DNA of 64,000 nt from Streptomyces buecherae (GTDB lineage: Bacteria; Actinomycetota; Actinomycetes; Streptomycetales; Streptomycetaceae), in NCBI RefSeq assembly GCF_014295035.1, contig NZ_CP060404.1:7852501-7916500 (forward strand), given 5' to 3'. Positions 1 to 8,992 of this stretch are shown piece after piece. A program made the translations under genes and the position numbers. Within the stretch, counting starts at the first letter, position 1. Each line of letters opens with the position of its first letter. The notes beneath the pieces are model-generated. The model saw only the letters and a list, made by a program, of their open reading frames with translations, was not told the origin of the DNA and searched no databases.

Positions 1-3000
1 TCGGCCAGCCGCCCGTAGGCCCCCTCAGCCTCGGCGAGCGCAACCCCCTGCCCCGGCCATGCCCCGTCCTGCGGCGCTCGCCCCTTCGCCGACACGACAC
101 CCACCGCGTGCTGCACCCACGCACCGTCATCCGCGCCCTCCGGTCGGGTGTGGATGGTGAGGGGGTGTTGTCCGGTGGTGTTGGGGGTGCCGATGTGTAT
201 TTGGAGGTGGTGGGGTTGGTGGTGGGTGAGGGTGAGTGGGGTGTGGAGGGTGAGTTCTTCGATGTGGTGGAGTCCGGTGTGGTGTGCGGTGTGGAGGGCG
301 AGTTCGAGGAGTGCGGTGCCGGGGAGGAGTGGGGTGTTCCAGAGTGCGTGGTCGGTGAGCCAGGGGTGGGTGTGGGTGGAGATGTGTCCGGTGTAGAGGG
401 TTTCTTGGCTGGTGGCGAGGGTGGTACGGGTGAGCAGGAAAGGGTGACCAGTTGAGTCATTGCCGCGACGGTGACTGGGTGAGGAAGCAGGGAGCCAGTA
501 GCGCTGGCGTTGGAAGGGGTAGGTGGGGAGGTTCGGGTGGTGGTGGGTTGGGTGGGGGAGAAGGGTGGTCCAGTTGATGGGTGTGTTGTGGGTGTGGAGG
601 TGGGCGGCGTGGGTGAGGAGTTGGGTCCAGGTGCCGTGGTCGCGGCGGAGGGTTGCGGTGATGGTGGCGGGGCGGTTGGTGTGGTCGGTGATGTCGTGGA
701 GTGGTGCGGTGAGGATGGGGTGGGGGCTGATCTCGATGAAGGTGGTGTGTCCGTTGTCTAGGGCGGTGGTGGTGGCATCGGTGAGGAGTACGGGTTGGCG
801 GAGGTTGGTGTACCAGTAGTCGGCCGTGAGGTGGGTGGTGTCGAGGGCTTCGCCTGTGGTGGTGGAGTAGAAGGGGATGTGGCTCGTGGTGGGCTTCAGG
901 TCTGTTAGCTGGTTGAGTAGTTGCTCGCGTACGGCTTCCACGGAGGGGCTGTGGGAGGCGTAGTCGACGTTGATGCGTCGGGCGTGGATGTTGTGTTGTT
1001 CGCAGTGTTGGAGTAGGTCTTCGATGGCGTTGGTGTTGCCGGCGATGACGGTGGTGTGGGGTCCGTTGTGGGCGGCGATGTGGAGGTGGGTGCCCCAGGC
1101 TCCGGGGAGTTGTTGGGTTGCTTCGGGTGTGAGGGTGAGGGAGGCCATGGTGCCGTGGCCGGTGAGGGTGGTGTGGATGGCTTGGCTGCGAAGAGCGGTG
1201 ACGCGGGCGCCGTCTTCGAGCGTCAGGGCGCCTGCGATGACGGCCGCGGGGATCTCGCCTTGGGAGTGGCCGATGACGGCGGTGGGTTGGACGCCAAGCG
1301 ACTGCCAGACGCGGGCCAGCGAGACCATGACAGCGAACAACGCGGGTTGGACCACATCCACGCGTTCGATGGGCTGCCCGTTGGTGAGCACTTCGGTCAA
1401 CGACCAGTCGACGTAAGGCGCCAGGGCGTTCTCGCAGTCGGCTATGGACTGTCGGAAGACCTCGGAGGTGCGCAGGAGGTCGGTGGCCATGCCGGTCCAC
1501 TGCGATCCCTGACCGGGGAAGACGAAGACGGGCTTGGTGTGGTTGGTGTTGCCCGTTACCACGTTGGGGTGTTCGTCACCGTTGGCGAGGGTGTGGAGTG
1601 CCTCTCGTAGGTGGTCGCGGTCATGGGTGAGGAGGACGGCGCGGTGTTCGAGGGTGGCTCGGCCGGTGAGGAGGGTGTGGGCGATGGCGTACGGGTCGGT
1701 CTCCGGGTGGTCTTCGACGTACGTGGCGAGTTGCGTGGCCTGGGCGCGGAGGGCTTGGGGAGTGCGGGCGGAGAGGACGATCGGTACGACGCCCGTCTCC
1801 ACCGGCGCACCCGCGTTCTCCGGAACAGGTTCGCTTTCCGGGGCCTCCTCCAGGACGACGTGGGCGTTGGTGCCGCTGATGCCGAACGAGGAGACCGCGG
1901 CCCGGCGTGGCCGGCCCGTCTCGGGCCACTGCTGCTGCTCGGTGAGCAGGCGTACGGCGCCGGACTCCCAGTCGACGTGGGGCGTGGGCTCATCCACGTG
2001 CAGCGTGCGGGGCAGTACGCCGTGGCGCATGGCTTGCACCATCTTGATGACGCCGGCGATGCCGGCGGCGGCCTGGGTGTGGCCGATGTTGGATTTGAGC
2101 GAGCCCAGCCACAGCGGCCGGTCGGCCGGCCGGTCCTGGCCGTAGGTGGCGAGCAGGGCCTGAGCCTCTATGGGGTCACCGAGGGTGGTGCCCGTACCGT
2201 GCGCCTCCACCGCGTCGACCTCGTGTGCGGACAGTCGCGCATCGGCCAGTGCCTGTCGAATGACCCGCTGTTGGGCTGGGCCGTTGGGTGCGGTGAGGCC
2301 GTTGGAGGCGCCGTCCTGGTTGGTGGCCGAGCCACGCAGTACGGCGAGCACAGGGTGGTTGTTGCGGCGCGCCTCGGAGAGGCGTTCCAGTAGCAGGAGG
2401 CCGACGCCCTCGCTCCATCCGGTGCCGTTGGCCGAGGCGGCGAAGGCTTTGCAGCGGCCGTCGGGGGAGAGGCCGCGTTGTCGGCTGAACTCGATGAACA
2501 TGCCGGGCGCGGCCATGACGGTGGCTCCGCCGGCCAGGGCCATGGTGGTCTCGCCGCGACGCAGCGACTGGGTGGCCAGGTGCAGGGCGACCAGTGAGGA
2601 GGAGCAGGCGGTGTCCACGGTGATCGCCGGGCCCTCAAGGCCGAGCACGTACGACAGCCGCCCGGACAGCACGCTGACGGTACTGCCGGTCAGCACATGG
2701 CCCTTGACCTCCTCGGATGCCAGGTGCATCCGCTCGCCGTAATCCTGCGTCATCGCGCCGATGAACACCCCGCTCGGGCTGCCGCGCAGGGTCGCCGGAT
2801 CGATGCCGGCGCGTTCGAGCGCCTCCCAGGCTGTCTCCAGGAGGAGCCGCTGTTGCGGGTCCATCGCCAGCGCCTCGCGTGGGCCGATGCCGAAGAAGCC
2901 CGCGTCGAACTGGTCGGCGTCGTGCAGGAAGCCGCCTTCGCTGACGTACGTCGTGCCGGGTTGGTCCGGGTCGGGGTCGTACAAGGCCGCCACGTCCCAC

Positions 3001-5603
3001 CCCCGGTTCACGGGGAACGGGGAGATGGCGTCCGCACCCTCGGTGACCAGCCGCCACAGGTTGTCCGGTGTGCTGACGCCACCGGGGAACCGGCAGCTCA
3101 TCGCGACGATGGCGATCGGCTCGTCGGCGTCAGCCGCGACCGGGGCGGTGTGCACGTCAACGGCCTCGGACCCCGGACGCAGCAGCGCGCCGTGCAGGTA
3201 CTCGACGACGGCCTCGATCGTCGCGTGGTCGAAGAGCAGGGTCATCGGCAACGGCAGCCCCGTCGCCGTCACCAGTCGGTTGCGTACCTCGACGGCGGCG
3301 ACCGAGTCGAGCCCGAGTTCCCTGAACGACCGTCGGGCATCGTTGGCGTCCAAGACAGAGACCCCGCGCACCGCGCTGACCTGGGAGTACACCAGCTCGG
3401 TCAGCCATGCGCGCTGTCCGTCGGCCGGTCGTGCGGCCAGCTTCCGCCGGAGCCGGTCGGCGGGGCCGCCATCACCGACCGTGGCCGACCCGGCCGCCGT
3501 ATCGGCCGCGTCCGCTCCGAACGGGTACGTGGGTAGCCGCATCCGCCGGGCACCCGAGCCCTGGAACACGGCGCTCCAGTCCACCGTGACCCCGCGCACA
3601 TGCAGCTCCGCCAGGGACCGCAGAAAGGTGGGCACGCCGGGTTGGTGTCGGCGCAGGGAACCCACCACGGTGGCGTGCGCGCTCAGCCCCTCGCCCTCCA
3701 GCGTCTCCTGGACCCCGGCGAGCAGCACGGGGTGCGGGCTGACCTCCACGAACGTCCGGTGGCCGGCGGCCAGCAGGGCCCGGGTGGCCTGCTCGAACCG
3801 GATCTCCCGGGTGATGTTGCGCTGCCAGTACGGGCCGTCAAGGCCGACGGTGTCCTGGCGGCCCCCGGTCAGGGAGGAGTAGAAGGGCACCGTCGACGTG
3901 CGCGGAGTGAGCCCGGCCAGGCCGCCGAGCAGGAGTTCGCCGTCGAGGCGCAGCGTGGGCGAGTGCGCCGGGAGGTCGTTGCTGAGCCGCTTGGCGCGTA
4001 CGCCGTCGGTGACCAGCTCGGCCAGCAGTTCGGTCACGGCCTCCCGGTCGCCACTGAACAGGACCGAGCGCGGGCCGTTGGAACCCGCGAGGTGCAGCCG
4101 GTCGCCGCCCCACCGACCCAGCCGTCGCTCGATCTCCGCGCGGGACGCCAGGGCGGAGGCCAGATCGCCGTCACCGGTCGCGCCGGCCTGTGCCTGGCTC
4201 CACAACGCGACCACCTGGGCGGCTTCCTCCAGCGTGAGCGCGCCGGCGACATGGGCCGCGGCGATCTCGCCCAGGCTGGCGCCCACCACCGCGGCCGGCT
4301 CCAGGCCGCAGGCGCGCCACAGCTCGGCGAGCGAGACCATGACGGCGAACAGGACGGGCTGGACGACGTCGACGGCCCGCATCGCGGGGGCGCCGGGCGC
4401 CTCCCGCAGCACCTCGTGCAGGTCCCAGGGGACGTGTGGCTCCAGCGCGTCCGCGCAAGCGCGCATGTGCCGGCGGAAGACCTCGGAGGATTCCAGCAGG
4501 TCCAGGGCCATCCCCTGCCACTGGGGGCCCTGCCCGGGGAAGACGAAGACCGGGCGCCGGTCCGCCCCGCCCTCGGGCTCCACGCCGCTGTCGCGGTCGG
4601 TGGCGCTGACGACCATGGCGTCGAAGGCGCCGTCGGCCACCGCGCGCAGTCCGCGCAGAGCTTCGGCGCGGCTGGCGGCCAGCACGACGGCGCGGCGCGC
4701 GAGGGTGGTCCGGGTGCTGACCAACGACAGGCCGAGGTCGGCGAGATCGAGTGCCGGGGAGCTCTCGACCAGCCGGTGCAGGGCTGTGGCGCCGGCTCGT
4801 AGGGCCGCGTCGCTGTGCCCGGAGAGCACGAGCGGGACCAGCGGCGCGGTCCGAAGCGTGACGCCGTCCGGGACCGCCGGGGCGGCGGCCGGCCGGGGCC
4901 AGTCGGGCGCCGGGAGCGCGCCGACCAGGGCGAGCGCCTCGTCCACGGTGCCCCGTGCACCGAACTCGGCGGCAGGGTGGGCTGCCGTGGTGCCTGGCGC
5001 CCCGGTCGCGGTGCGGCCCCGGGTCGCCGCAGCGCCCTGTGTCCCGCCCTGCGTGGGGGCGTCCTCGGCCGTGTCGTCAGCGGGCAGGACGCCGTACGCC
5101 CGGTCCCCGTCCCGGATCGCCTGTGAGCGCTGCTTGAGCACCAGGACGAGGCCGCCCGCCCCGTCGGCGTCAGACGGGATCGCACCGACGAGGGCCCGGT
5201 CGATGTCGCCCCGCCGCAGCCGGTCGGTCGCGTGCGTCAGGGCCGCACGGATGGCACGACAGTCCAGGGGCCCCGAGCCGGCCGAGCCCACCGTGGCCTG
5301 GAAACCGTCCAGGTGGAGCCCGTGGGCGACGAACTCCGCGAGCCCGTCCCCGGCCGCGACGAGGAACACCCCGGTCCGGCCGCCGGGGAGCGTACCGGGC
5401 ACGATCCCGCCGTCCTCCAGAGCGGCCCACGCGAGCCGCAGGGCCAGTGACCGGTCAGCGGTCAGCTCGGCCGTCGCCGGGAGGCCGAAGAACGCGCGGT
5501 CGTCGTCCCAGGTGAGCGGACCGCCGACACCCTGGTGGGTGGCGAGTCCGATGATGACGACGGGATCGGCTTGACGGCTTGTCTGGGGCACGGGCTTCCT
5601 CAT
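1..5603 (-). CDS. Modular type I polyketide synthase: loading module plus start of extension module 1 (partial, runs off the left edge)
   Basis: The 1867 visible residues are the N-terminus of an assembly-line PKS. Order: KS-like remnant (about residues 13-170), acyltransferase AT0 (350-640), ACP (phosphopantetheine Ser767 in GLDSV), full KS1 (826-1260, Cys1000 in DTACSSS, then EAHGTGT and KSNIGH), AT1 (1358-1650), and a dehydratase from about 1720 cut by the window edge. AT1 has GHSQGE (Ser1447), Arg1472 and YASH, the methylmalonyl-CoA signature. AT0 has GASLGE (Ser443) and Trp468 exactly 25 residues later, where extender ATs carry the carboxylate-binding Arg. A Trp there is known from loading ATs that take monocarboxylic starters. 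The start ATG (5603) is the first in-frame start before conserved sequence. The gene reads away from the SARP gene. The product is unknown, because later modules lie outside. Confidence 0.97.
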   Translation of the reverse strand, partial: MRKPVPQTSRQADPVVIIGLATHQGVGGPLTWDDDRAFFGLPATAELTADRSLALRLAWAALEDGGIVPGTLPGGRTGVFLVAAGDGLAEFVAHGLHLDGFQATVGSAGSGPLDCRAIRAALTHATDRLRRGDIDRALVGAIPSDADGAGGLVLVLKQRSQAIRDGDRAYGVLPADDTAEDAPTQGGTQGAAATRGRTATGAPGTTAAHPAAEFGARGTVDEALALVGALPAPDWPRPAAAPAVPDGVTLRTAPLVPLVLSGHSDAALRAGATALHRLVESSPALDLADLGLSLVSTRTTLARRAVVLAASRAEALRGLRAVADGAFDAMVVSATDRDSGVEPEGGADRRPVFVFPGQGPQWQGMALDLLESSEVFRRHMRACADALEPHVPWDLHEVLREAPGAPAMRAVDVVQPVLFAVMVSLAELWRACGLEPAAVVGASLGEIAAAHVAGALTLEEAAQVVALWSQAQAGATGDGDLASALASRAEIERRLGRWGGDRLHLAGSNGPRSVLFSGDREAVTELLAELVTDGVRAKRLSNDLPAHSPTLRLDGELLLGGLAGLTPRTSTVPFYSSLTGGRQDTVGLDGPYWQRNITREIRFEQATRALLAAGHRTFVEVSPHPVLLAGVQETLEGEGLSAHATVVGSLRRHQPGVPTFLRSLAELHVRGVTVDWSAVFQGSGARRMRLPTYPFGADAADTAAGSATVGDGGPADRLRRKLAARPADGQRAWLTELVYSQVSAVRGVSVLDANDARRSFRELGLDSVAAVEVRNRLVTATGLPLPMTLLFDHATIEAVVEYLHGALLRPGSEAVDVHTAPVAADADEPIAIVAMSCRFPGGVSTPDNLWRLVTEGADAISPFPVNRGWDVAALYDPDPDQPGTTYVSEGGFLHDADQFDAGFFGIGPREALAMDPQQRLLLETAWEALERAGIDPATLRGSPSGVFIGAMTQDYGERMHLASEEVKGHVLTGSTVSVLSGRLSYVLGLEGPAITVDTACSSSLVALHLATQSLRRGETTMALAGGATVMAAPGMFIEFSRQRGLSPDGRCKAFAASANGTGWSEGVGLLLLERLSEARRNNHPVLAVLRGSATNQDGASNGLTAPNGPAQQRVIRQALADARLSAHEVDAVEAHGTGTTLGDPIEAQALLATYGQDRPADRPLWLGSLKSNIGHTQAAAGIAGVIKMVQAMRHGVLPRTLHVDEPTPHVDWESGAVRLLTEQQQWPETGRPRRAAVSSFGISGTNAHVVLEEAPESEPVPENAGAPVETGVVPIVLSARTPQALRAQATQLATYVEDHPETDPYAIAHTLLTGRATLEHRAVLLTHDRDHLREALHTLANGDEHPNVVTGNTNHTKPVFVFPGQGSQWTGMATDLLRTSEVFRQSIADCENALAPYVDWSLTEVLTNGQPIERVDVVQPALFAVMVSLARVWQSLGVQPTAVIGHSQGEIPAAVIAGALTLEDGARVTALRSQAIHTTLTGHGTMASLTLTPEATQQLPGAWGTHLHIAAHNGPHTTVIAGNTNAIEDLLQHCEQHNIHARRINVDYASHSPSVEAVREQLLNQLTDLKPTTSHIPFYSTTTGEALDTTHLTADYWYTNLRQPVLLTDATTTALDNGHTTFIEISPHPILTAPLHDITDHTNRPATITATLRRDHGTWTQLLTHAAHLHTHNTPINWTTLLPHPTHHHPNLPTYPFQRQRYWLPASSPSHRRGNDSTGHPFLLTRTTLATSQETLYTGHISTHTHPWLTDHALWNTPLLPGTALLELALHTAHHTGLHHIEELTLHTPLTLTHHQPHHLQIHIGTPNTTGQHPLTIHTRPEGADDGAWVQHAVGVVSAKGRAPQDGAWPGQGVALAEAEGAYGRLA

Positions 5604-5897
5604 CGACTCGTCTCACCCATCCGGTGCACCGGGCAAGGTGCTGGCTCCTGAGCAATGGATTCCGTGGCGGGGCCCGGTGACGGGCCGGCCTGTCACCTGG
5701 CAGGTCATACGGCGCCAGCCGCGACCGCTGGGAGAAGTTCTGAGTCCTGGTCAGAAGCCCGATCCACGGGCCGTGCCCCGTCGCACGTCCACCCCCGTCG
5801 CCTGCGGCGATCACTCGCCTCGCGCGTGGGTGCCGACGGTGAGCTCATGGCTCCCCGGGCCGCTCCCAAGCGCTGAACCACACCCTGCCACGGCGCT

Positions 5898-5937
5898 CTT
5901 GGAGTGACCTTGGAACGAACTTGGAGCGATCTTGGGC
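5898..5937. promoter_or_regulatory. Probable SARP operator: four 11-bp-spaced hexamers
   Basis: CTTGGA begins at 5898, 5909 and 5920, and CTTGGG at 5931, so all four are exactly 11 bp apart. SARP activators are known to bind direct heptamer repeats at 11-bp periodicity next to a poor -10 box. The array lies about 295 bp before the PKS start and directly downstream of the SARP gene, so this SARP acting on the PKS promoter is the simplest reading. A CAGGGT on the minus strand about 10 bp beyond the last repeat could serve as the -10. The rest of 5604-6044 shows no gene. Confidence 0.75.
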
Positions 5938-6044
5938 CCGTCAAGCGCGAACGACACTGGCCCGCCCCGAGGGCCAGCCGTGAGGGGCGGGGCCGTGACG
6001 GGGCGGGCCAGCGTCGTTCGCGGCCCGCGTGGGGAGCGGAGGGG

Positions 6045-6881
6045 TTACCGAGTCGGGAACACGGAGACGTCCGAGGCCCGGGAGCCGAGGCCGGAGCTTC
6101 GGCGCTCGGACGTCGGCTCGCCGCACAGAACCCGTCGGAACAGCCGCTGCAACTCCTCACCGGGGTCGATGCCGTACTCGTCCGCCAACACCCGGCGCGC
6201 GCGGTGGTAGGTGTCGATCGCCTCGGCACGGCGACCCGCGCTGCACAGCGCGCTCATCAGCAACAGGTGAAAGCGCTCGCGGGTCGGGAACCGGGTGCTC
6301 AGGGCCGACAGCTCGGCCGCTATCACCGAGATGTCACCGGGCTCCGCCAACCGTGCCTCCCAATAACTCTCCAGGGCGAGCAACCACAACTCCTCGAACC
6401 GGGCCGCCACCTGCGCCCCGAGCGAGTAGTCGCTGACCTCCGGATGAGCGCACCCGCGCCGTAGGGCCAGGGCCCGTTCCAGCGTGCGGCACGCCTGCTG
6501 CGGCGTACCCGCCGTCAGCAGGCGCCGGCCCTCCCGCATCAACTGCTCGAAGCGCACCGCGTCGATGCTCTGTGGATCCGCCGCGAGGACATAGCCCGTC
6601 GCCTCGCGCCGTAGGACGTTGTCCCGGCTGCGGGGTGGTCGGTGCGGCTCCAACGTCCGCCGCAGGTTGGATACGTAACTGTGCAGGTTCGCCATGGCCG
6701 CGCTGGGTGCCCTGTGCGGCCAGACGGCCTCGGTGAGCTGTTCCGCCGTCATCGGATGGCCCGGAGTGAGGAGTAGGGCGGAGAGGACGGCTCGCTGCCG
6801 GGCCGAGCCGAGGTTTACCGGACTGTCGTGAACACTTACTCCGACCGGACCAAGGACGTGGAAATGCACTGGATAATCCAC
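6045..6881 (-). CDS. SARP-family transcriptional activator (winged helix plus BTAD)
   Basis: This 278-residue protein has the classic SARP layout. Residues 1-95 form an OmpR-type winged helix (HVLGPVGV, SARQRAVLSALLL, AEQLTEAVWP, LHSYVSNLRRTLE). Residues 100-245 form the bacterial transcriptional activation domain (ALALRRG, the RFEELWLLALE helix, a YHRARRVLADEYGIDPGEEL ending). The GTG at 6881 is chosen because it sits just before the conserved FHVLGPV strand, has GGGGG about 11 nt upstream and gives the usual small-SARP length. In-frame starts at 7031 and 7184 would add a non-conserved tail. SARPs are pathway-specific activators of antibiotic clusters. This one follows the PKS on the same strand and faces the 11-bp repeats at 5898-5937. 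No TTA codon was noticed. Confidence 0.93.
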   Translation of the reverse strand: MDYPVHFHVLGPVGVSVHDSPVNLGSARQRAVLSALLLTPGHPMTAEQLTEAVWPHRAPSAAMANLHSYVSNLRRTLEPHRPPRSRDNVLRREATGYVLAADPQSIDAVRFEQLMREGRRLLTAGTPQQACRTLERALALRRGCAHPEVSDYSLGAQVAARFEELWLLALESYWEARLAEPGDISVIAAELSALSTRFPTRERFHLLLMSALCSAGRRAEAIDTYHRARRVLADEYGIDPGEELQRLFRRVLCGEPTSERRSSGLGSRASDVSVFPTR

Positions 6882-8992
6882 GGTCGAAAAGACCCCCGAA
6901 TGTAGTCCATAGGAACCTGATAACGCGACGCGCAGACAGCGACGCCGTGACGTCTGGCCATGTGTTCTTCCCCAATGGCTGCCAGCGTACTGACGGGGAC
7001 GTGAAAGTGAAGGTCTGGAGTTGTCACTCATCTGCTGATATGGCGCGGCGCGCGGACTGTCGGTGGTCGCCCGAGCCGTATGCTCTCCCACCTTTCTGAC
7101 CTGCTGCTTCGCTGATCCGCTCGGGCGTCGGGGAGCGAGGCCGGAGCCGCCGCCGGGCTCGGTGAACGGCGTTTGCGCGATCAAACATCGATGTGCAGAA
7201 GAATTGTTTATTTGTTGGATCTGAGGCTCCCTGGCACCTCGCCGAACCGCGTTCGGGGAACTGTTCCGCTACGGCATCGGGCATACCGCTGGTAACGCCG
7301 GACGTGTTTACTCGGGAGTAACGCGTTGGCGGGGTGGGCCGCCCCCAGCTTGGCGCAAAAACGCCTTCTCTTCGTGCCCTCGCGGGCCCGCGTCCTGAGG
7401 GTCGGCGCGCGCCGCTCGGGCTGGGGCGCGCCGGGCTCGCCCATGCTCGGACGCCCGTGAGCGCCTGGTCTGGACCGCGGGTAAGGGCTGGTGAGTCGCG
7501 CCCGCCACCCGCCGCCTGTGGTCGTGCCCGGGGGTGGGGCGGCGGGTGCCCGGAGGATGGATGCCCGAAAGGGGTCGGGTGACAGCGGTAAGGCCCGCGT
7601 GGTGCGGTGCGCTTTCGGGACACTTGGGAAGTGCTGCTGGCATAGTGCATGGTTTCGCTTTTCCTTGCCCGATGTGGGCTCTGATTGCGCGGTGAAGAGA
7701 CGAGCTTCCTTTCCGGCGGAAGGCGGAGTAAACGAGTTCGCTGCTTTTCTCTCGTTGCGTACGAGATGCTGCTAGTGTCGAATGTTGCACTGTCCCGCTC
7801 CGGAAAAGCGGAGAAGAGGGAACCGTGTGAGTCGCGGGGAGAATTCTGGCGTGCGGATGAGGGCGGGGTGAAGGGAGGCTCTTCGGCGAGCGAGTCGATC
7901 GTATGGAGGAATCCGCATCCCGCCCTCGCTCATTTTCCTCGTGCGGGTTCGCCAGGGGGAGACGTGGCCTTCTCCTCCGCCGCGACGGCGCCGCCTCTCT
8001 TCCGCTGATCGCGACGAGGCTTCCACTTCGCGGCGGATCGGGATGCCGTGCCGGCCCTCCGTCGCGTGTGCTAGCGGCGGGGAGTCAGGCGCGCGACGCC
8101 GGCCGGTGCTGCTCGGCGGCCGTCGCGTCGGCTGGTGAGCGAGCTGCCTGGCGGCCTCGCGCGTGACGCGATGTTCACGGCTCGGCGTCCCAGCGGGTCG
8201 CGGGTTGGCCGGCGAACCCGAATGGAGACAATGCGACCATCTTGCCGCGCGGTTACCCAATTCGCGCGGATAGGGAGGCAGTTGCTCCTCGCCCGCACTT
8301 TATGTCTCCGACGTCAGCGGCAACGTCATCGGCCGCGCCCCCCGCCAGCGCAATGCCCGTTTCGGCCCCGTACGGCGCCCGAAATAACGCGGACTGTGCC
8401 CGAGCGTCACCTCGCGGGAAAAGGGTGTTCGGTCGCCAAGTCTGCGCAGTCACGGCACTTTCCGGGGCCGAAGCGACAGGATGGGCGGATGTGACCAACG
8501 TGACGGTTGTTACCAGTAGCGATATGCCGTGCCCCGTAACGCAGTCCCCATCGCCCGAACCCGTCGCCGCACAGAGCCACGTCCCGGCACCCGGCATTTA
8601 CTCCAAGCCTGACCACGTGCGCTGTACGAGAACAGCCGGGACCGCGCACCGAGTTCGCGGGGCGGTCAGGCACGGCTGCCCTCCCGCGCACCGCCCCGCC
8701 CGAGGGGTGACTCCGTACGGTCGCCGGGCCGAGGGCGGTCGAAGGTGGTCGAAGGAGCGCGATCGGCGCGCCACGGGAGTGGCGATCCGGCCAAGCCGCC
8801 AACCGTCACGCGGCTTCGGCGCGGCCCCGAAGGACGTCACGTACGCCCACGAACTCGCCTCGCCGGGCGGCGTCGTGACTGCTGTCCACACCTGCGCTTA
8901 TGAGCTGTGCCACTACGCGCCCTCCGGGGTAGGCGACCTGCCGACCAGGCCGAGTGGCGGTCGGTCCGGGCGGCAGGGCGACCAGGTTGATG
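6882..8992. other. About 2.1 kb with no recognisable gene
   Basis: No reading frame on either strand resembles a known protein. The long open frames are Arg/Pro/Ser-rich, as expected of open shadow frames in high-GC DNA. The segment holds A+T-richer pockets near 7190-7220 and 7600-7800 that could contain promoters, the latter followed by a small hairpin (CCGCT/AGCGG near 7795-7815). At 8491-8513 there is an imperfect inverted repeat (GTGACCAAC, then GTTGTTAC). It probably marks the boundary of the polyketide cluster. Confidence 0.5.

Follow-up and report, generated by a model that had tools for sequence, protein, structure and literature searches.

A window of 64,000 nucleotides from Streptomyces buecherae (the whole stretch of DNA analysed; contig NZ_CP060404.1, positions 7,852,501 to 7,916,500) contains four similar hexamers in regular order between the gene of a SARP activator and a PKS gene. 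The question raised by this locus is whether the array is the operator through which the SARP acts on the PKS gene. Analysis of the locus and of its relatives indicates that the array is very probably the operator of the adjacent small PieR-like SARP, located in a SARP-dependent promoter.

The SARP gene, the PKS gene and the array between them

The SARP gene is located at positions 6045–6881 of the minus strand and encodes a protein of 278 aa; its GTG start was picked by similarity, and the open frame extends further upstream. Pfam domains BTAD (E 2.8e-34) and Trans_reg_C (E 1.6e-9) were found in the 309-aa frame, which bears out the identification of the array's neighbour as a SARP in the first-pass annotation. 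The Trans_reg_C winged helix precedes BTAD and the protein is shorter than about 300 aa, as is typical for small SARPs. Homology to AfsR, which has been solved in promoter complexes, was detected with E-values from 5.5e-28 to 1e-26, and the protein aligns better with EmbR than with AfsR.

The predicted target is the first PKS gene, which is pieA1-like. It is a modular PKS gene on the strand of the SARP gene, with its start at position 5603. The 5′ part of this open reading frame inside the window (positions 3–5603, minus strand) encodes KS, AT, DH and ACP domains, and the whole gene (G000:C1:7850082–7858103) encodes 2673 aa. The piericidin cluster is represented in the table of PMC9112059 by R, PKS genes A1–A6 and genes of O-methyltransferase, polyketide cyclase, amidotransferase, O-methyltransferase and FAD hydroxylase. 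ORFs in this order, all on the minus strand, were found here: A3 is located between A2 and A4, A6 follows A5, and past A6 the Pfam matches are, in order, methyltransferase, Polyketide_cyc2, Asn_synthase, methyltransferase and FAD_binding_3. The size comparison was limited to genes with clear boundaries, namely, A1, A2, A4, A5, B1 and D; their frames of 2673, 3464, 2210, 1942, 229 and 613 aa correspond to published piericidin sizes of 2743, 3468, 2201, 1923, 230 and 616 aa, respectively (PMC9112059).

The PKS domain content of A2, A3 and A5 fits the table in PMC9112059; for A1, the domains are those of its 5′ part. The A6 frame encodes two KS, two AT and one TE; no KR was detected in it at E 1e-10, versus one KR in that table, and the frame extends to at most 2699 aa, versus 2982 aa in the same paper. 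Gene order and near-equal sizes, with A6 as an imperfect fit, suggest a cluster of the piericidin type, and the SARP is therefore called PieR-like. A match to the Rfam family ASpks, which comprises antisense RNAs and takes its name from TB pks, was found at window positions 2094–2168, opposite the PKS strand and within coding sequence.

On the plus strand, the hexamer CTTGGA starts at 5898, 5909 and 5920, and CTTGGG starts at 5931, so that the positions and the exact 11-bp spacing given in the first-pass annotation are correct. The placement of the array between the SARP and PKS genes also stands, but its reading strand was corrected: the array is to be read on the minus strand, as TCCAAG, because both the SARP gene and the PKS gene are encoded there. 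In this sense it is CCCAAG-n5-TCCAAG-n5-TCCAAG-n5-TCCAAG, with 11-bp steps; SARP operators are represented by direct repeats at 11 or 22 bp, and four units at 11 bp are present here. As minus-strand heptamers, the units are GCCCAAG (5931–5937), the most promoter-distal one, CTCCAAG (5920–5926), TTCCAAG (5909–5915), for which overlap with the −35 region is expected by analogy with the AfsR box (PMC10936776), and CTCCAAG (5898–5904). The weak −10-like hexamer CAGGGT, reported earlier on the PKS side, is indeed present at 5882–5887 of the minus strand, 10 nt past the last CCAAG. Positions 5603–5875, from the predicted start site to pieA1, would make up a leader of about 270 nt, conserved stretches of which were found in the loci L012, L067 and L013.

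After the SARP gene, a hairpin with 24-nt arms, 96% complementary, is encoded at 5946–6022 of the minus strand. The fold of the region 5935–6035 has an energy of −76.8 kcal/mol (z −7.7), and none of 200 shuffles was equally stable. The hairpin is probably a terminator that splits SARP transcription from PKS transcription. A scan for T-run terminators and a promoter scan of positions 5560–7700 gave no calls, and the Rfam search gave no match at the array.

The array is the sole match in the window to the three-unit pattern with at most two mismatches (0/100 shuffles match) and the sole perfect match in the whole genome of 8,416,829 bases. With two mismatches, two other places in the genome match, versus one for the reversed control pattern. 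The exact pattern CCAAG-n6-CCAAG-n11-AnnnT occurs in the genome once, in the array, while the two-repeat pattern with the −10 element and at most one mismatch gave four matches, two of them inside the array, versus 10 for the control. No CCAAG arrays were found in 183.3 kb of non-SARP DNA of the same genome. A second four-copy CCAAG array with 11-bp steps is located at G000:C1:1230379–1230417 (L071) and is conserved at G153:C1:1169500–1169538 (L072). Both copies lie in apparently non-coding DNA (no frame with a clear coding pattern) and have no −10 element at offset 10; a frame with a LuxR-type helix-turn-helix is located about 0.5 kb downstream of the array in L071.

Recurrence of the array in loci with PieR-type SARPs

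SARP homologs were collected from named contigs and from 392 genomes of the genus, 394 of the family and 394 of the class; these are overlapping draws, and their counts are not additive. The set comprises 19 distinct loci in which the identity of the SARP to that of the window is about 53% or higher (52.5–100%). L015 is the same as L087 in sequence and L085 the same as L014, and each pair was counted once; L088 was kept in the set although its SARP match contains one TAG. Arrays were scanned for as CCAAG at 11-bp steps in three units, with at most one mismatch in each and two in total; the −10 element was excluded from the pattern.

A CCAAG array of three to six units was found in 18 of the 19 loci, which are related, fall by eye into eight or nine groups and are not 19 independent events. 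The number of arrays is also 19, with two in L070; a further array of L069, at 4109 on the minus strand, lacks a −10 element and was excluded from this number. No array was found in the 7 kb searched in L017, the SARP gene of which is located at a contig end. A hexamer xAnnnT (A in position 2, T in position 6) starts 10 nt past the last CCAAG in all 19 arrays, whereas at every other offset from 0 to 39 it occurs in at most one array. Accordingly, copy number varies among the arrays, and the phase and the distance to the −10 element are constant. This recurrence, with both the 11-bp phase and the −10 distance kept, supports the interpretation as a SARP operator put forward in the first-pass annotation.

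A target-like gene on the strand of the array is present in all 18 loci, a PKS gene in 14 and an AurF-type gene in four. The start of the PKS is pieA1-like in the 14 loci, of which L014, L086, L087 and L092 match only from about residue 236–319. In L016, L070, L093 and L094, the array is followed by a gene for an AurF-type N-oxygenase-like protein, 78–79% identical to that of L070 in the others, and is located 1.8–4.3 kb away from the SARP gene rather than adjacent to it. The SARP gene is on the same strand as the array in 14 of the 18 loci and divergent in four. In L013, the SARP of which is 81% identical, the segment made up of the last repeat, the −10 element and the DNA between them differs at 2 of 23 positions, and the flanks are less alike by eye.

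The motif had also been proposed as a finder of further targets. This use failed in the cluster of the window, where a scan of 184 kb for TCCAAG arrays revealed no second array, and succeeded in the sister cluster L070 with its two arrays. The two CCAAG promoters of L070 (8040 and 19235) belong to one AurF-containing cluster; the gene after the second array had no Pfam match in the 166 aa scanned.

Among the 392 Streptomyces genomes, the four-repeat pattern with at most three mismatches was found in 10, and these include each of the five genomes whose SARP reaches 55% identity or more. The hypergeometric chance of such an overlap is about 3e-9, or 1e-7 without the genome of the window (hand calculation, uncorrected for relatedness). 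The −10 element is absent at the offset from all seven remaining arrays (0/7), namely, those of the other five genomes and those at the second place in G000 and G153.

The recognition helix [HQ]SY[VL]S[NH]LRR is encoded in all 19 loci, versus 1 of 25 more distant SARPs. The SARP of L051 (39% identical) has the helix HSYVSHLRR, yet no array was found in its flanks; judging by these sequences, the helix is not exclusive to array-bearing loci.

Autoregulation of the window's SARP through an array of this type was considered and rejected, since the 700 nt upstream of its gene contain no two CAAG spaced 11 or 22 bp apart. In L086, L087 and L089, a CAAG pair is located upstream of the SARP gene, with no −10 element seen by eye at the expected offset.

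Comparison with known SARP operators and with other readings of the array

The array is similar to the AfsR box at the afsS promoter of S. coelicolor, where 11-bp direct repeats cover the −35 element and the spacer and the −10 element is weak (PMC10936776). The AfsR complex contains two SARP protomers, arranged side by side on 11-bp repeats that span −40 to −30 and −29 to −19; of either repeat, the first 8 bp are contacted, and the protomers dock sigma region 4 above a −35 element that is poor (PMC10936776). With CAGGGT set at −12 to −7 (our arithmetic), the last heptamer of the array occupies −29 to −23, inside the downstream AfsR repeat, and the next one −40 to −34. The quoted rule for SARPs places the 3′ repeat 8 bp from the −10 element (PMC10936776); in the window, 10 nt separate the end of CCAAG from it, and the distance comes to 8 or to 10 according to the end chosen for the repeat. 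Unlike the array, the AfsR box is represented by two repeats of CGTT(T/C)ATCGNN (PMC10972967). At the position of R92, by which AfsR contacts a base, the SARP of the window has N, and at that of T88 it has S (our count along the alignment; roles from PMC10936776), in line with a different box.

By gene context, the four loci with an array before an AurF-type gene resemble the aureothin cluster with its regulator AurD, which has been co-expressed as an activator of the nor cluster (PMC6718629). Likeness was also found to the operator of PimR at pimM of S. natalensis and to those of SanG and PolR, which consist of heptamers with 4-bp spacers and 3′ CAAG; the PimR heptamer CGGCAAG and CTCCAAG of the window have this 3′ part in common (PMC5930380). 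PimR binds cooperatively, as at least two monomers, and one monomer per heptamer is supported (PMC5930380). On account of the geometry of the AfsR complex and the work on PimR heptamers, the array is read as a putative PieR operator of four units, from which pieA1 and the genes after it would be driven. It would be a SARP operator of the textbook type, new in its details.

The binding repeats in the PieR study of S. piomogeues are said to be CCGGA. At positions 5590–7700 of the window, no two CCGGA of the same strand were found within 25 nt of each other. In L068 (9300–10120, minus sense), where the SARP and PKS genes are divergent, three CCGGA with 10-bp steps come shortly after the CCAAG array and its −10 element, and only part of this series is kept in the related L091. 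As a lead only, a footprint in a region like that of L068 could cover both the CCGGA and the CCAAG elements. PieR of S. piomogeues is an activator, and its regulator type and cluster type are the same as in the window (PMC10972967). A review places its site, consisting of two heptamers, upstream of pieR, unlike the array of the window, which is upstream of the pieA1-like PKS gene (PMC10972967). Literature searches gave, by title, no paper on Streptomyces for CTCCAAG with SARP and, for PieR with footprinting, piericidin A1 only in a SARP review, both among the matches listed; for CCGGA with SARP, none on PieR was found by title.

Arrays of at least three units, all with the −10 element at 10 nt, were also found in the flanks (about 1.5 kb) of 3 of 25 SARPs of 38–44% identity, namely, L055, L057 and L064, and four more of these 25 have two units only. 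Because of the arrays with the same offset beside the three distant SARPs, the CCAAG box is, at the sequence level, common to a wider SARP set and not exclusive to PieR. The main user of the operator could then be another SARP or a regulator of the AfsR/OmpR type, with PieR acting elsewhere, for example, at its own promoter. The position of the published site upstream of pieR (PMC10972967) and the 36 first-look candidates for the SARP query in the genome are also consistent with another user. Nevertheless, this reading is improbable, as the array tracks PieR-type SARPs across differing gene orders, in 18 of 19 loci and with all five best homologs of the 392 genomes.

Another SARP subfamily, 60–72% identical to the SARP of L057, is located beside CCAAG arrays with 0 or 1 mismatch in L103, L106, L111 and L122, of which L106 is the L057 locus itself. 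In the genus-wide scan with three repeats, the −10 element and at most one mismatch, 47 matches were found in 37 of 392 genomes, versus 67 for the reversed control (hand count). At this stringency, the bare pattern is not specific genus-wide. Ten of 30 loci from the scan have a SARP match within the 2.0–3.0 kb searched at each, including one 68-residue piece and three PieR loci already counted.

Tandem CCAAG 11-mers are present elsewhere, for example, as seven copies without a −10 element in L029, and the array could in principle be a chance or minisatellite repeat with no regulatory function. Against this, the spacers differ from unit to unit and all 19 arrays have the same −10 offset, copy number being the only one of the three properties (number, phase, −10 distance) that varies; such an origin is very unlikely. 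A role of the array in a terminator or attenuator that acts at the RNA level between the SARP and PKS genes, as the very stable adjoining hairpin might suggest, is hardly credible. In four loci the SARP gene is divergent, so that its transcripts should not pass through the array, and nevertheless the array and the same −10 offset are present.

Proposed mechanism and its meaning for PieR-type clusters

From the repeats, their phase, the −10 distance, their conservation and the gene context, we infer binding, activation, a start site and an operon for the PieR-like SARP as follows. SARP monomers would bind one per 11-bp unit on a single face of the DNA. In the AfsR box, the counterpart of the unit 5898–5904 would be the downstream repeat and that of the unit 5909–5915 the upstream one, and these two units of the array, nearest to the PKS gene, would cover the spacer between the −10 and −35 elements and the −35 region. 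The bound pair would keep sigma region 4, along with RNA polymerase, on a promoter whose −35 element is poor and whose −10 element, CAGGGT, is weak, and the two further units (5920–5926 and 5931–5937) would add cooperative binding. Transcription would start about 7 nt past the −10 element, at about position 5875, and the transcript, with a leader of about 270 nt, would run into pieA1 and the following pie genes of the same strand. The strong hairpin would insulate the pieA1 promoter from SARP transcription.

A broader proposal is put forward tentatively, as a possibility more doubtful than probable. PieR-type SARPs may share one operator code across piericidin-type and AurF-type (aureothin-like) clusters, namely, CCAAG units repeated every 11 bp, the last of which ends exactly 10 nt before xAnnnT. 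In some members, up to six in-phase units may nucleate a side-by-side array longer than the two-protomer AfsR complex, so that repeat number would set promoter strength. The PieR site described in print would then be another element or one that was misassigned.

With the array, a precise candidate operator is available for the activator in a cluster of the piericidin type and for its relatives. It also suggests a rule for recognizing controlled promoters in silent clusters, namely, CCAAG units at 11 bp, located 10 nt from the −10 element and near a PieR-type SARP. The natural series of three, four and six repeats could show how repeat number tunes a SARP promoter.
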